32,419 bases of DNA, from positions 1 to 32,419 of the IMG/VR virus record IMGVR_UViG_3300043464_001543, one strand, 5' to 3'. Position numbers and translations under genes: made by a program. Below the pieces are notes generated by a model. That model made no database searches and was not told where the DNA came from. It saw only the letters and a program-made list of their open reading frames with translations. The DNA comes from a virus. Below, piece by piece: positions 10,590-19,712 of this stretch. How positions within the stretch are numbered: position 1 is the stretch's first letter; the number at the start of each line of letters is the position of its first letter.

Positions 10590-10618
10590 AATATACAAAT
10601 TATTAATGAGAATTGCAA
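10590..10618 (-). promoter_or_regulatory. Promoter-like element upstream of the 564-aa fibre gene
   Basis: Minus strand: TTGCAA (10618-10613), 17 bases, TATATT (10595-10590), in the extended form TTTGTATATTA. It overlaps the end of the 957-aa gene and lies about 17 bases before the fibre ATG, which leaves a short leader. It belongs to the family of similar elements at 7810, 15790, 22677, 30384 and 31992. Confidence 0.5.
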
Positions 10619-13476
10619 GATTTTAATGTACTATTACATCCACATCCACATGTAGGTGTATTATTACAACAAGATTGAACTGGTGTACAAATGTAATTTG
10701 GATCACGTGCTCCTTGTAAATCTGCTAATTCTTTTTTAATTATCCATCTTTGTCCAAGGTCTGTATCTGGACAACAATTACTTATTCCATATCTTCTTTC
10801 AAGTACTGTCTTATATAATATCTCTGCAGAGTTACAAGCAAATTTCTCATATTTATCAGGATCACATGAAGGAACAAAGTAACCAGGTCTTATTGCTCTC
10901 TTTGGATATACAGGAGCTGGACAAGCTCCATTAATACAGTCTCCATATTCTTTAATATCATCTGTAGCAGAAGGAATAAAAGGTTCATACCCTACTGAAC
11001 AATCTACTGTTGTAAGTTGACATAAGCCTTTAATTTCAACGTAGAATGCTGTTGGTTCAACATTTGTGTAAACACCATTTAAACAAGTACAGTTTGCTGG
11101 AAATGCTGCTACTTCTGTCCAAACAGGTTCTGGTAAGTCAGTATTAAAATATTCTAAATACCATACACCATTGCAATTATTAAAATAAAATACACGTAAT
11201 CTAAATTCATAAACAGTGCCTTCAACTTCAATATCTCCAGTATACAAATTTAATGTATAATCATAAACTAATACTCCTTGTAATACCAATGTACCATTAT
11301 CTAAAAAAACTGCTATATCAATAGCAGGATTAGTGTTAATAATCCATTCTCCAACAGGACATGCTATACTTGGACTACCTAATGTAGCTACAGGATTGGG
11401 TGCTGTTGAATTTGTAATTTTCCAACCAATTATTGCATCATATACAATATTGAAAGTTAATGTATTATATACAAAAGTCCAAGCTGGTTTTCCGTTTACA
11501 AGATTTGGTTGAAGTACTGCGGTAACTGATTGTCCGCTAATAGTAAGTGTAATACAATTACAAAGTTTATCTCCAACAAAATTTCTTATACATTCTTTTT
11601 CACTTTCTTGATTAGAAGTTAATGTGATTGTTTGTGCAATACCATTGCAGTCTATGTAAGTATAGGTATGCGGTAAAGTATCATAATTTTTAAATGTTTC
11701 TGTTACTATCCAACAACCTGGACATTCTTTAATACTTACAACAAAACCTTCACAATTACAAGCAATAGTTGATACAGTATTAAAAGGAGTTCCTTCTACA
11801 AAAGACCAACTTGTTGAAATAGGAATATCAATATTAGAATTTAATTGATATTGAGTAGCTTCAATACCTATATTTAAATACCAAGTATCTGGATTAAATA
11901 CTAAAATTATTACTTCAAATGTATCAAAACCAACAGTATTTGCATAAAAATAAACACTTTTACCATCCTCTTCTCCTGTACTTTGTAATGTATATTCAAT
12001 ACCATCTAAAACTACTGTTATGCAAGGATTTGATAAAGTAATTAAATTAACTGAAACATTTGTATAACCATTCTCACCTGTCCAATTTATAAAATCTGGA
12101 CTTGTGGCAACTATGGCTGTTTCGTCATCTTCAAAAAAAATAGTCCATAAATTTGTATCTGATAGATATCTTAAAAAAAATATATTATTATCTAAATTAT
12201 TTATATAAACATATATATTTTCATTATTTATATTACCCACATCAGATAAATCTTTTACATATGTAATACCTTTATAAGTATAGGTAACTCTTGCAAATTC
12301 ATTAGAACAATCATTATTAACAGTAGGGCTTGTATCAAATGTAGATATTTGAGGTTCTAATAAATTTAATGCTGAGTCTGTATAAATTACTTGAGTATCA
12401 TCTAAACAATTAGTTAACTTATAATAAGTCTTAGCACATGCTACACATGAATCAAAAGTAAATGTGATATTAATAGTTTGTGTACTTGGTGGATTATAAT
12501 TTATTTCAGATACAAACCAACACTCACCACATTCTAACTTTACTGTTTTTCCTACATAAGCTGAGTAGTCTTCAGTACTATATCTTATAATAGATTGATT
12601 ATTACAATTAGTAAACTTATAATTTACAATTGGTAAACAAGCAGGACAACTGGCATATGCTGTCAGTATAGTAACACTAACCGGACATTCACAAACTTCT
12701 GTAATATCTATACTCCAACAACCTTCATAACCTTGTAAGGTAACTATTTGATCTTGAGCATAATAAGGAATTACACTAGGTGTATTAGATACTGCTAATA
12801 CTTCTTCTGTTTGACAATTAGTAAATTCAAAACATATTTCAGGACATTCTCCATCTACACATAATCCTAATTCTACAACAAATCCCGAACCGGCTCCAGT
12901 AACAATAGGTATAATATATGAACATACTCTAGTAGCACCAATTACTGTAATGATATCATAGTCAGCATTCATGTATGTTACTGTAGCAGGATTACCTGTA
13001 ACTTGATAACATTTTAATACACAAGGTGTTTTAACACTAACTGTATCTAACACAACATCTATAGCATCATCACAAGTTGTTTTAGTTGGATCTTCTATTA
13101 CATACCATGTTTTAGGATCATCTTCAATTCTGATGTAAGTTCCTACATTAGCAGAAAGATCTGTAGTAGTATTAAATGTACTACCATCACAAGCATATAA
13201 AGTATAACATGGTGTATCACAAACACATTTATCATCATCACAACCTGTTCTAACTGTAAAATCTACAGCATCAACGTCAGGTAATCCTATAACAAAACCA
13301 ATAGTTCCTGTTTTTGTACTTATACTATAACAACTATCATTTACTAAGCCATTTTCTGATACTCCTGAATATTGATAAAAATCAGGTGCTTCATTAAATC
13401 CGCTAGGTAATTTAAAGTTTAATATAATTAAACCATCACAACAAGAGATTACTTCTATGTATTTAGCTACAGCCAT
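10603..13476 (-). CDS. Large Cys-rich beta-repeat structural/adhesin protein (957 aa)
   Basis: This long extracellular-style virion protein is built from degenerate repeats of about 65-75 residues. Each has a core like 'YKLTNC...', a polar strand, 'YVGKTVKL', a CW pair and a closing CxxC. Visible copies begin near residues 89, 214, 283 and 350 (for example YKFTNC at 286-291, YKLTNC at 352-357, GYEGCW at 249-254, CGECW at 316-320). Later parts are more diverged. The last 100 residues form a separate module (RPGYFVPSCDPDKY, NSAEILYKTVLERRYG, WIIKKELADLQ), ending in a Cys-dense tail (CGCGCNST). I recognise this C-terminal type from similar phage proteins but know no function. The repeats suggest disulfide- or metal-stabilised Ig-like strands in a fibre. 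It follows the 79-aa zinc-ribbon-like gene by 6 bases. Confidence 0.6.
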   Translation of the reverse strand: MAVAKYIEVISCCDGLIILNFKLPSGFNEAPDFYQYSGVSENGLVNDSCYSISTKTGTIGFVIGLPDVDAVDFTVRTGCDDDKCVCDTPCYTLYACDGSTFNTTTDLSANVGTYIRIEDDPKTWYVIEDPTKTTCDDAIDVVLDTVSVKTPCVLKCYQVTGNPATVTYMNADYDIITVIGATRVCSYIIPIVTGAGSGFVVELGLCVDGECPEICFEFTNCQTEEVLAVSNTPSVIPYYAQDQIVTLQGYEGCWSIDITEVCECPVSVTILTAYASCPACLPIVNYKFTNCNNQSIIRYSTEDYSAYVGKTVKLECGECWFVSEINYNPPSTQTINITFTFDSCVACAKTYYKLTNCLDDTQVIYTDSALNLLEPQISTFDTSPTVNNDCSNEFARVTYTYKGITYVKDLSDVGNINNENIYVYINNLDNNIFFLRYLSDTNLWTIFFEDDETAIVATSPDFINWTGENGYTNVSVNLITLSNPCITVVLDGIEYTLQSTGEEDGKSVYFYANTVGFDTFEVIILVFNPDTWYLNIGIEATQYQLNSNIDIPISTSWSFVEGTPFNTVSTIACNCEGFVVSIKECPGCWIVTETFKNYDTLPHTYTYIDCNGIAQTITLTSNQESEKECIRNFVGDKLCNCITLTISGQSVTAVLQPNLVNGKPAWTFVYNTLTFNIVYDAIIGWKITNSTAPNPVATLGSPSIACPVGEWIINTNPAIDIAVFLDNGTLVLQGVLVYDYTLNLYTGDIEVEGTVYEFRLRVFYFNNCNGVWYLEYFNTDLPEPVWTEVAAFPANCTCLNGVYTNVEPTAFYVEIKGLCQLTTVDCSVGYEPFIPSATDDIKEYGDCINGACPAPVYPKRAIRPGYFVPSCDPDKYEKFACNSAEILYKTVLERRYGISNCCPDTDLGQRWIIKKELADLQGARDPNYICTPVQSCCNNTPTCGCGCNSTLKSCNSH

Positions 13477-13743: not shown

Positions 13744-14310
13744 TTAACAATGTGTACAAGTCATTTTGTTCAAAAGCTTAAGAGCAAAATTATATAAGCT
13801 CATTCCCTTCTGAGGTTCATGACAAAATTCTACTTTAGATATTGCTGCATCAAGATACATTTTTATGAAACGCAATTCTTCAAGTCTTTGTTTAATTTTA
13901 AATGGTGGTTCACATGCATTTGCATCAACATCACAAAGTACATTGTAATATTTATTCATTGCTTGTGTAATTCTCATATGATTATACTCTACATATACTT
14001 GATCATTAGGAGATACACTATATTTAATTATGTAAATCCCATCTGGGATATCTACATACTGTGTACCGCAGTCATTTGTTTGTAGTTGTAAATCACATGC
14101 TGTTAGTGTGATATGTCCAGTATTAACAAAATCAGTCATTACAGCTCCCTCAATTTGATTAGAATAGTTGAAGCCCGGCACCGTAATGTTAAGTGTAGGA
14201 CAAGTAACTGGAAGTAATGGGTTAACTGTATAAACACTTGTATCAAATATTTTTAAGATACATGAGTTCATTACAAAGGGAACCTCTAAACTTAATACAT
14301 GATTTGCCAT
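13744..14310 (-). CDS. Conserved structural protein of the tail/fibre region (188 aa)
   Basis: A beta-rich N-terminal half (TCPTLNITVPGFNYSN at about 36-51, then ITLTACDLQLQT) leads to DIPDGIYIIKYSVSP and a helical C-terminal half (IKQRLEELRFIKMYLDAAISKV) ending in CTHC. I recognise this layout as a conserved protein that accompanies crAss-like and related Bacteroidota phage structural genes, but I cannot name its role. Candidates are an adaptor that anchors the following Cys-rich fibre proteins or a tail-hub part. The ATG lies only 13 bases beyond a hairpin terminator (14324-14360), with no room for a promoter in between. It is therefore probably expressed by read-through from the 458-aa gene. 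Confidence 0.55.
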   Translation of the reverse strand: MANHVLSLEVPFVMNSCILKIFDTSVYTVNPLLPVTCPTLNITVPGFNYSNQIEGAVMTDFVNTGHITLTACDLQLQTNDCGTQYVDIPDGIYIIKYSVSPNDQVYVEYNHMRITQAMNKYYNVLCDVDANACEPPFKIKQRLEELRFIKMYLDAAISKVEFCHEPQKGMSLYNFALKLLNKMTCTHC

Positions 14311-14380: not shown

Positions 14381-15757
14381 TTAATCTAGTACTACGATAT
14401 CACCTGGGAAAGGTACAATTGGATTTTTACAGTTATCACCTGAAATAGTTGGTTTTGCAGTACATGTAGTACATGAATCTAACCAAGTATTTATTGCAGC
14501 CCATACACCAGTCACATTATTAATATCACCTTGGTTAACAATAATTTCTACTAAGTATTGATCATTGTCAAATGTTCCAGATGGATTGTAAAAACGTGGT
14601 ACATTATGTAGTAAATAAATTCTATCATAAAGTGCATTTCTGTCAATAAAACCATTACATCCTACAATTGCATCTCCTTGAGTAATTTCACGAATCCTGA
14701 AATCAGTTGCAAAGAAGTTTTGTCTGTAAGATTCTGACAAGATAAAATCTCTTGCTACAGTTTCTCCAACTCCATTAGCTTGAAGACCATAACATTCAAC
14801 ACCTACACAAAGTGTTTGGAACTCACATGGAGAACCTGTATAATCTACTTCAGAAGCATAGATTCTTACTGGCTCTAACTCATAGAAATCAGAAACTTGG
14901 AATGTACAATTACCAAATTTAGTATCTTCATAAGCACCAGTTAAAGTAAACCCTGCACACATATCTGCTGTATAAGCTTCTTCTGACCAATCAGAATAGT
15001 TTTCATATGTTACATCCGGACCTGGTAACGGTAATGTTGTTGTATCAACAGTATCTGGATAATAGTATGTCCAAGTAGTACCATTGTCATCAGAGAATGT
15101 TACAATTGGATATACAAAAGGATTGATAATTGGAGAATTCAAAATTTGATTAGCCCAAGCAAAATATACTTTACGTGGATCTACTGGAGTTGGTACAATT
15201 GCATCATCAGCACAACATCCTGTATAACCCTCAAGAGTTAAGTAAGCATTGTGATCTAATAATCTTAATGCAGGAGAACCTTTTACATCTAAACGTAAAT
15301 AGTAAGTTTCACCACATAAAAATTCTTTACAACAAGTACCACCAGTTTCTCCTGGATTAGAACTTGAAGGTGGATTGTCAACATTCCAAGGAGTGTATCC
15401 AACATTAGTTACATACTTAGAAGGTGCATTAGCCTCAACATACCAATACTTACTCACATACTGAGGTTTAATAGTTTTAGTTTTGTTAGACTCTTGGTAT
15501 CCTCCATGAAATTTACCAATTTTATCATTTGGATAAATTGAACCTGATGCAACAATAACTGCACAACATGGGTCAGTAGCTGCCTCTGGTGAAACTTCAA
15601 AGTTGTCAGGATTAATAAAAGTAATTTCAGCTGGTGCCAACTGATTGTAAGTAAAAGCTCCTGGTGCAGTTGGAGTACCTAACTGAACACCGCTCAATGT
15701 AGAAACCCCTTCTGTTGCCAAAAGGACTTTTCTAAAAGCGTGATTAAAATAAGCCAT
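14381..15757 (-). CDS. Putative abundant virion structural protein (458 aa)
   Basis: The N-terminus (MAYFNHAFRKVLLATEG) is a phrase I recognise from conserved structural proteins of Bacteroidota phages. The body is beta-rich and aromatic, with scattered CC pairs (PCCAVIV, GTCCKEF, GCCADD) and a C-terminal CTTC. There is no enzymatic motif. It has its own promoter-like element (15790-15818), an A-rich leader (AAAACAAAAAACA before ATG) and its own terminator directly after the stop. Of the structural genes, only the capsid gene has a comparable arrangement, which suggests high expression. Candidates are an auxiliary capsid/decoration protein or a major tail component. The position, after the connector-like gene and before the fibres, fits either. 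Confidence 0.58.
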   Translation of the reverse strand: MAYFNHAFRKVLLATEGVSTLSGVQLGTPTAPGAFTYNQLAPAEITFINPDNFEVSPEAATDPCCAVIVASGSIYPNDKIGKFHGGYQESNKTKTIKPQYVSKYWYVEANAPSKYVTNVGYTPWNVDNPPSSSNPGETGGTCCKEFLCGETYYLRLDVKGSPALRLLDHNAYLTLEGYTGCCADDAIVPTPVDPRKVYFAWANQILNSPIINPFVYPIVTFSDDNGTTWTYYYPDTVDTTTLPLPGPDVTYENYSDWSEEAYTADMCAGFTLTGAYEDTKFGNCTFQVSDFYELEPVRIYASEVDYTGSPCEFQTLCVGVECYGLQANGVGETVARDFILSESYRQNFFATDFRIREITQGDAIVGCNGFIDRNALYDRIYLLHNVPRFYNPSGTFDNDQYLVEIIVNQGDINNVTGVWAAINTWLDSCTTCTAKPTISGDNCKNPIVPFPGDIVVLD

Positions 15758-15819: not shown

Positions 15820-16338
15820 TTATTTTAAGAAAAGTAATTTATATTTAGTAGAATTGATAGAATCCTTAACTAAATCTAAGTTGTTTACTATTTCTGAGTA
15901 AGGTAGCATTCCCTGTAGTTTGTTAATCATTGCATAGATGTCTCTCAAGTAAGCAACACCATCAGCTACTGTATCTAAAGTTCTACATGCTAGATCTTTG
16001 CACTCAAGTATTTTCTCAGATACTCCTTGATAACCTTCTACTAAGGTATCAGCATGTCCTGGTAAACCATCATAAAAATCTCCAATTGCTATATGTGCAG
16101 CATAAGATCCTTCTCCAGTAACTTTTAAATGAAGCTTGTGAAAACTATTTCTAGCATTCATAAGTTCCATTGCACATGCAGCAACCATTGTATCTAATGA
16201 ACTTCCACCAACTCCAGTACTTGGAGTAGGTTGTGGTTTAGCCGGCTCACTCTTAGGTTGAGTAACAACTACTTCTGGTCTACTTACTGTTTTTGTAGAT
16301 TCAGGATTTCTTTTTAACATTCTAGGTTTTGCTTCCAT
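15820..16338 (-). CDS. Dps/ferritin-like protein (172 aa)
   Basis: After a disordered Pro/Lys/Ser N-terminus (1-46), residues about 48-172 look like a four-helix ferritin-type bundle. The segment FHKLHLKV...AAHIAIGDFYDGL...HADTLVEGYQG lines up with Dps. H70, H82, D97 and E101 reproduce the spacing of E. coli Dps H51, H63, D78 and E82 exactly (12, 15 and 4 residues). The place of Dps D67 is Gly86, with Asp87 beside it. Dps proteins oxidise iron at the dimer interface and bind or protect DNA. Here the gene sits between a connector-like gene and a structural gene, so the product may be virion-associated. From memory this type may fall in a DUF family (DUF5856) of Bacteroidota phages; I could not check. 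The fold is likely, and iron binding is inferred from the retained ligands. Confidence 0.68.
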   Translation of the reverse strand: MEAKPRMLKRNPESTKTVSRPEVVVTQPKSEPAKPQPTPSTGVGGSSLDTMVAACAMELMNARNSFHKLHLKVTGEGSYAAHIAIGDFYDGLPGHADTLVEGYQGVSEKILECKDLACRTLDTVADGVAYLRDIYAMINKLQGMLPYSEIVNNLDLVKDSINSTKYKLLFLK

Positions 16339-17041: not shown

Positions 17042-17188
17042 TTATTTATTTTTTGCCATTTTTTTAAAAGTTCTAGCCAGTGCTTTTCTCTTTGGAGTAC
17101 ATGTAGGTTTAGACATTGGAGTACAGAAACCTTTATGTTTAGGGTTAACTGCTTTTTGTATCCAGTTCTTATCCTTCTTTTCAGCCAT
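17042..17188 (-). CDS. Small Lys-rich protein (48 aa)
   Basis: This short frame starts at the ATG 2 bases after the stop of the 186-aa gene and ends 2 bases before the start of the 232-aa connector-like gene, so it fills the gap exactly. The product begins MAEKKDKNWIQKAVNPKHKG and continues with two Cys-Thr-Pro phrases (FCTPMSKPTCTP). About a third of its residues are Lys or Arg. 'MA.K.WIQKA..' openings are common in tiny basic peptides of tailed phages. Function unknown; DNA binding or scaffolding of neighbouring structural proteins is possible. Confidence 0.72.
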   Translation of the reverse strand: MAEKKDKNWIQKAVNPKHKGFCTPMSKPTCTPKRKALARTFKKMAKNK

Positions 17189-17766: not shown

Positions 17767-18048
17767 TTAACAGTTCCATTTTCTTAAAGACTTATTGATC
17801 CTTGAGTCAGGATCATTAGCTGTCTTAGAGCTTGTTAGTTTTTTCTTCATTCCTGACATTCTAGCACAAAAGCTTTTTCTTCTCTTAGCATCTTTGCTAT
17901 CTGGATCAAGTTTAGAAGGTTTTGTAGTTACAGCTGTCTTGAGTTTACTACCAGGATTTTCTCTCCTATAGGAAGCAACCCCTTTAGAGTTTAATCCTCC
18001 AGAGGGGTTCTTACCTTCTTTTCTTTGCCATGCCGGAGACTTTGCCAT
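17767..18048 (-). CDS. DUF6321-like small basic phage protein (93 aa)
   Basis: The sequence is a close match to a widespread small phage protein family that I know as DUF6321. The opening is SPAWQRKEGKNPSGGLNSKG, followed by RRKSFCARMSGMKKKLTSSK and the closing phrase DPDSRINKSLRKWNC. The family occurs in many unrelated tailed phages, notably aquatic ones, and its function is not established. The high Lys/Arg content and conserved Cys residues suggest nucleic-acid contact or packing within the virion. It is preceded by a 2-base gap and followed by an 18-base AT-only spacer. Length is complete. Confidence 0.8.
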   Translation of the reverse strand: MAKSPAWQRKEGKNPSGGLNSKGVASYRRENPGSKLKTAVTTKPSKLDPDSKDAKRRKSFCARMSGMKKKLTSSKTANDPDSRINKSLRKWNC

Positions 18049-19680: not shown

Positions 19681-19712
19681 AAAAAATAGGGAGGAGTTTC
19701 CCCCTCCCTTAT
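19681..19712 (-). terminator. Intrinsic terminator after the major capsid gene
   Basis: Minus strand AGGGAGG (19709-19703) pairs with CCTCCCT (19694-19688) around an 8-base loop, followed by ATTTTTT (19687-19681). This is a clear rho-independent terminator 13 bases after the capsid stop. The next gene begins at 19647 with only an A-rich leader in between, so downstream genes appear to depend on read-through. Confidence 0.87.

Follow-up and report, generated by a model that had tools for sequence, protein, structure and literature searches.

A Dps-like protein in a late-gene slot of a freshwater crAss-like phage and its exchange for bacterial-type ferritins in sister phages

Dps proteins, ferritins, and their relatives in phages

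Dps proteins are dodecameric cages with the iron site between two subunits; they have ferroxidase activity with peroxide, and many bind DNA. Of the two iron sites seen in Dps structures, the tighter is made by residues H51, D78', and E82', and the other by H63 and D67. The bacterial representatives (Escherichia coli Dps, Helicobacter pylori NapA, Bacillus subtilis MrgA, and Listeria innocua Dps) share the fold, the order of the ligands, and the spacing of H51, H63, D78, and E82 with the phage protein described here, which is encoded by a 32,419-base virus record of IMG/VR (the window) from a freshwater crAss-like phage. The phage protein differs from them in lacking D67 and Trp52, in being missed by the general Ferritin model, in its tagged N terminus, and in being the product of a late phage gene. 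The bacterial nonheme ferritin FtnA (PF00210) belongs to another branch of the ferritin superfamily, with its metal center inside the helix bundle and no family-level homology to the window protein; in sister phages, it fills the slot of the window gene and bears the same tag.

Dps-like proteins have been described from phages before (PMC8008677; crAss001 gp7). The closest group is the DUF5856/phrog_858 family, to which T4 rI.-1 and ORF078 of the Dickeya phage LIMEstone1 belong by the curated cutoff, with the same four ligands as the window protein; only the crAss-like branch combines an LKR tag, a long linker, and a slot adjacent to a tail-ring gene. T4 rI.-1 (NC_000866, L408:18820-19206, 128 aa, beside rI) matches DUF5856 at 5e-33, has all five Dps ligand positions, including the Asp at the D67 position, and provides a laboratory model for the family. 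Within Crassvirales, crAss001 gp7 ("putative DpsA") and the gut crAss DpsA proteins are distantly Dps-like (phrog_858, 4e-7; DUF5856, 3.4e-5, below the cutoff). The gp7 protein (L168:4551-5000) is 16% identical to the window protein, has its gene among tRNA genes and apart from the structural block, and retains the canonical Asp of the D67 position. The gut crAss DpsA proteins represent a second, differently placed Dps-like lineage in this order.

A ferritin-like protein tied to iron, as proposed here, has also been reported from the mass spectrometry (MS) data of the Vi01-like phage Sajous1, where gp217 was modelled as a ferritin by Phyre2 and a "ferrojan horse" mode of entry was proposed; Salmonella TonB and FeoB mutants were infected by Sajous1 equally well (PMC10892097). 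Sajous1 is a myovirus, and its protein is assigned by the Phyre2 model only. The literature searched, which covered few subscription papers, yielded no biochemistry of any DUF5856 protein, no paper naming DUF5856, none linking Crassvirales with Dps, and none linking prohead protease, Dps, and ferritin-like proteins.

Predicted fold and candidate metal ligands of the window protein

Family searches of the window retrieved the crAss hallmark genes for capsid (PF23898, 4.4e-31) and muzzle (PF25731, 1.7e-25), ring 1 (PF24228, 5.1e-8) and ring 2 (PF25702, 2.5e-21) genes besides a ring 3/4-like gene, and the crAss portal and terminase PHROGs (phrog_6547, 9.8e-94; phrog_6681, 1.6e-56). The Dps-like open reading frame has 172 codons and an ATG start located 2 nt past the stop of the upstream gene (Table 1). 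Its product matches DUF5856 with 49 bits against a curated cutoff of 34.6, and the matching PHROG is annotated as "starvation-inducible transcriptional regulator." The Ferritin family PF00210 gave no match to the window protein at E values up to 1 (one relative reached 0.026, below the cutoff), and a PDB search with the single sequence returned no match. A profile built from 32 close homologues (alignment A1) retrieved Dps-family structures for all of its best 16 matches, with a best E value of 0.007. The profile of nine diverse phage homologues (A3) placed H. pylori NapA at the top (9.2e-8), followed almost only by Dps proteins, and a third alignment (A4) gave weaker matches of the same kind (E value of 0.0017).

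Table 1. Coordinates of the features discussed in the text (all on the minus strand of the window)
Feature	Position	Strand	Observation
Dps-like slot gene, 172 aa	15820..16338	-	PF19174 1.3e-12; phrog_858 8.6e-17; PDB profile matches to Dps
N-terminal tag, residues 1-12, MEAKPRMLKRNP	16303..16338	-	Common to ferritins in same slot of sister phages; silent codon variation at L8, K9, R10
Pro-rich linker, residues 13-46, predicted disordered	16201..16302	-	pLDDT below 50 for residues 1-44
Four-helix bundle domain, residues 47-172	15823..16200	-	AlphaFold helices; Foldseek mostly Dps
H67 codon	16138-16140	-	Invariant
H70 codon (E. coli Dps H51), helix A	16129..16131	-	Invariant; register to E. coli Dps
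H82 codon (Dps H63), helix B	16093..16095	-	Invariant
G86 codon, lost D67 position	16081..16083	-	Q/G/N in 66/68 rows
D97 to E101 codons (Dps D78, E82), helix B	16036..16050	-	D97 and E101 invariant
Upstream slot border, ring 3/4-like tail protein, 232 aa	16341..17039	-	PF25710 4.9e-4 (below cutoff); phrog_29507, virion structural protein, 1.4e-13; adjoins slot in sister loci
Downstream slot border, 458-aa protein, family without name	14381..15757	-	Syntenic in sister phages; 16 Cys
188-aa protein	13744-14310	-	9 Cys
957-aa protein	10603-13476	-	56 Cys
48-aa protein	17042-17188	-	Small, basic
DUF6321 protein	17767-18048	-	Small, basic
Hairpin	19688-19709	-	G+C rich, then T run; directly 3' of capsid gene

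The AlphaFold prediction for the single chain shows four helices (residues 47 to 72, 78 to 107, 124 to 142, and 148 to 170) arranged as a four-helix bundle, with most of the core at pLDDT values above 80. The four ligands fall on its helices A (H70) and B (H82, D97, and E101). Foldseek comparison of this model retrieved mostly Dps structures, with E values of about 0.006 and TM scores up to about 0.6. In the crossover between helices B and C, where Dps proteins have a short helix, one model shows a helix at residues 106 to 112, which in the other model is merged into helix B. The model from a deeper alignment gave Foldseek E values that were no better, and hhalign gave a weaker result with this deeper alignment than it did with A3. 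Taken with the profile matches, the predicted bundle makes it very likely that the window protein is a Dps-like member of the ferritin superfamily, as an earlier note made from the sequence alone had proposed. Several large uncultured-phage proteins in BFVD (A0A6J7WPK9, A0A6J7XDU5, A0A6J7WIS1, and A0A6J5N5R9, named prohead protease or Ferritin/DPS domain protein) also have a region similar to the predicted fold, which may point to fusions between a Dps-like domain and the head protease.

Among the window's 32 predicted proteins (10,312 aa), there is a single match to H-x11-H-x14-D-x3-E, where 0.0055 matches are expected from shuffled proteins. With A3, hhalign sets H70, H82, D97, and E101 in register with H51, H63, D78, and E82 of E. 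coli Dps, and the gaps of 12, 15, and 4 residues given in the earlier note are correct. None of the four residues varies in 55 distinct close homologues or in a diverse alignment of 68 rows (67 distinct, since the window was entered twice) that spans crAss-like phages, small podophages, P19250A-like phages, Ackermannviridae, and a 635-kb phage. Neither of the two observations that would have refuted the earlier note, a predicted fold lacking the four-helix bundle or variable His, Asp, and Glu residues among the homologues, was thus made. Residues H67, S78, Y89, and G105 are the other invariant positions of the diverse set. The bridging or second-site carboxylate D67 is replaced by Gly86 in the window protein, and the Trp that follows the first His in Dps is missing. 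The earlier note had described the D67 position as shifted, with Asp87 next to Gly86, and the ligand set as nearly intact. Both residues are where it placed them, but Asp87 can be ruled out as a displaced ligand because its position varies among the homologues (D, E, K, G, or S). Since D67 is lost in most of the family, the four retained ligands belong to a variant center and not to a slightly shifted one. T4 rI.-1 keeps this Asp, so the loss is a trait of some branches. With the ligand geometry judged from the alignment and the helix positions, DUF5856 proteins would keep the first Dps iron site and weaken the second. A classical intrabundle ferritin center was also considered for the window protein and ruled out, as the invariant set is the interface set of Dps on helices A and B, and helix D provides only D155 in the diverse alignment.

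A structural slot with exchangeable content

The Dps-like gene lies in the late block of the window, where the genes relevant to the slot are all on the minus strand, between the ring 3/4-like gene and the gene for the 458-aa protein; its placement among structural genes was thus rightly called. In the sister phages, whose slot loci are all metagenomic, the order of ring gene, slot gene, and genes for the 458-, 188-, and 957-aa proteins is kept in nearly all loci fetched. The latter three proteins are Cys rich, and Pfam and PHROGs searches with the 957-aa protein found no known family. Two small basic late proteins are encoded 5' of the ring gene, and their presence differs from locus to locus; in other phages, the DUF6321 protein is the C terminus of much longer proteins (phrog_727 and phrog_3477). 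The hairpin downstream of the capsid gene is likely a terminator that parts this gene from the later structural genes.

Of 41 capsid-anchored loci that include both flanks, 40 have a Dps-like gene in the slot. The exception (L283) has a 204-aa open reading frame that begins with MEAKPRSLKRP, compared with MEAKPRMLKRN in the window protein, whereas the remainder is a ferritin of bacterial type (PF00210, 1.6e-24), to which ferritin 3qz3 is the closest relative of solved structure (1.7e-22). A search with this ferritin yielded 57 loci, and 39 loci are linked to the ring gene when L283 is included. Four of these 39 have a ferritin gene followed by a Dps gene in tandem, so that both cages in one phage are the exception. 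Likewise, no PF00210 ferritin was found in six long genomes and one shorter genome with a Dps slot, and no phrog_858 protein was found in six long genomes with a ferritin slot.

A tree of 106 ring proteins (slot content of Dps in 79, ferritin in 25, and both in 2) needs 15 changes of content, 12 to 13 of which are forced by well-supported branches, and the nearest relatives of the window in it are ferritin loci. A smaller capsid tree needs six changes. As neighbors of the slot may recombine, these counts describe changes of slot content relative to the neighboring gene and not species events. In seven sister pairs, identity amounts to 69 to 92% in the ring gene and 60 to 88% in the first 36 nt of the slot gene and is about 45%, the level of unrelated sequences, in the rest. 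Contig chimeras could mimic single swaps, yet the ferritin form is present in many contigs from independent samples. Within the literature searched, a fixed structural slot in which Dps-like and ferritin genes appear to replace each other behind one lineage-specific tag seems to be new.

The exchange bears on what the protein does. Candidate ferroxidase residues are kept in 40 of 40 slot ferritins and relatives, and the repeated replacement by bona fide ferritins supports a ferroxidase-like function, as suggested in the earlier note, more strongly than the invariance of the ligands. The window protein thus probably oxidizes or stores iron. A purely structural role, in which the ferritin fold now serves as part of the neck, tail, or head and its metal center is vestigial, would agree with the slot adjoining a tail-ring gene, with the loss of D67, and with the Dps-like domains predicted in BFVD proteins named prohead protease. 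It is nonetheless quite unlikely, given that the four ligands are invariant over very distant phages, that the replacing ferritins retain their candidate ferroxidase residues, and that a specific structural interface would hardly allow a swap to another fold family.

The N-terminal tag and a possible place in the particle

The 46-residue tail that precedes the bundle contains 8 Pro, 5 Lys, 3 Arg, and 4 Glu, with a net charge of +4; the homologues have a median of +3 (range, +1 to +4). The conserved part of the tail is a short N-terminal LKR motif. Among the 55 close Dps homologues, L8 and R10 are invariant and K9 is present in 54. An LK[RK] motif occurs within the first 18 residues of 74 of 75 slot Dps proteins, 19 of 24 ring-linked ferritins, and none of 16 ferritins without ring linkage (Fisher P of 3e-7), and in 11 of 79 Dps-like proteins of other phages. 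Silent codon changes are found at all three LKR positions, indicating that the constraint acts on the protein. The near invariance of the tag in the Dps set favors selection on it, although the tail as a whole evolves faster than the core (median dN/dS of 0.28 for residues 1 to 46 and 0.125 for the core). Variants of the tag follow the phage lineage and not the payload, as illustrated by a Dps protein (L051) and a ferritin (L373) that both start with MAEQPRNLLKR.

The role favored in the earlier note, condensation or shielding of the packaged genome through a basic DNA-binding tail, has in its favor the homology to Dps and the net positive charge. The tail is indeed Pro and Lys containing, as that note described, but only mildly basic, and what is conserved in it is the tag that ferritins, which are not known to condense DNA, carry as well. 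LIMEstone1 ORF078 and several other family members have almost no tail. Condensation of DNA by the tail is therefore very unlikely, and "docking linker" seems a better description of this segment than "DNA-binding arm."

A tag bound to the lineage is what a docking address for a coevolving particle protein would look like. A recombination joint just 3' of the tag would give a similar picture, and both may hold. The joint is central to a possible, less probable reading, according to which the slot gene encodes a soluble enzyme of the infected cell without a place in the virion. A late Dps or ferritin would clear free iron and peroxide and protect phage DNA and the dying host, and the tag would be a leftover near the 5' end of the gene. 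The same interpretation has been given for gut phages that encode Dps and catalase (PMC8008677). Family members in small phages often adjoin lysis genes, T4 rI.-1 adjoins the lysis-inhibition gene rI, the DpsA gene of crAss001 lies apart from the structural genes, and the drop of identity directly after the tag in sister pairs is expected of a joint. Against this reading stand the conservation of the tag among Dps proteins that have not been swapped, with silent changes in its codons, and the late structural slot, which is fixed in the sister phages.

Virion proteomics of a distant family member also argues against a soluble enzyme. LIMEstone1 ORF078 is a DUF5856 protein (8.8e-29) labelled "confirmed structural protein"; it was identified in virion MS with 3 unique peptides and 28.21% coverage (PMC3296691, Table 2), and the unknown structural proteins of this phage all have structural counterparts in ViI (PMC3296691). 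The suggestion that the protein is packaged gains partial support from this member, which comes from a myovirus unrelated to the window phage and has no LKR tag. Small proteins can contaminate virion preparations, and the crAss001 literature examined does not name DpsA as a virion protein. Attachment of the slot protein to the particle through its tag is, on balance, somewhat favored.

The following explanation would account for these observations. The slot gene would encode a phage mini-ferritin of the Dps type, from the DUF5856 branch, whose subunits pair, probably inside a larger cage. Iron would be bound where two subunits meet, by H70, together with H82, on one side and by D97 and E101 on the other, and Fe(II) would be oxidized and stored as a harmless mineral, with the main Dps iron site kept and the second-site carboxylate lost. 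The short tag (M-E-x-K-x-R-x-L-K-R) on its flexible linker would dock the cage to a lineage-specific late particle component. The slot would be modular. Since the function required is the handling of iron and the tag supplies the address, sister phages could exchange the Dps domain for a ferritin of bacterial type and leave the tag in place. The refilling of the slot in sister viruses points to the retention of an iron-storing protein, perhaps one that is attached to the virus particle. An iron-oxidizing cage docked in this way, taken as a whole, has about an even chance of being correct, with iron oxidation, cage formation, docking, and the place in this virion being inferred. The broader proposal, that environmental crAss-like phages have a dedicated particle slot through which any tagged ferritin-superfamily cage joins the virion, as mineral iron or as an iron-oxidizing shield and with the type of cage freely exchanged, is more tentative. 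As the narrow crAss tail offers no exit for a mineral-filled cage, such a cage would not be injected intact if it were inside the head.

The slot would make the question of whether phage particles carry iron, raised as the "Ferrojan Horse" idea for Vi01-like phages (PMC10892097), directly testable in an abundant phage group. If this reading of the slot is true, it would give a likely function to DUF5856 (about 1,440 phage records, including T4 rI.-1) and provide a natural tag for docking cargo or decoration.

T4-type capsid-targeting sequences were considered as the source of the tag and rejected for want of any resemblance to it. The Dps-like proteins of other phages (L173-L268 and L158) bear conserved N-terminal leaders that are particular to each lineage, namely, MKK(V/I)(Y/F)SIxEA in P19250A-like phages, KGTLLYG in small podophages, and a basic helix ending in xEQ in L208-L252. 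The leader of the P19250A-like phages resembles MKTYQEFIAEA, the leader of T4 internal proteins II and III.
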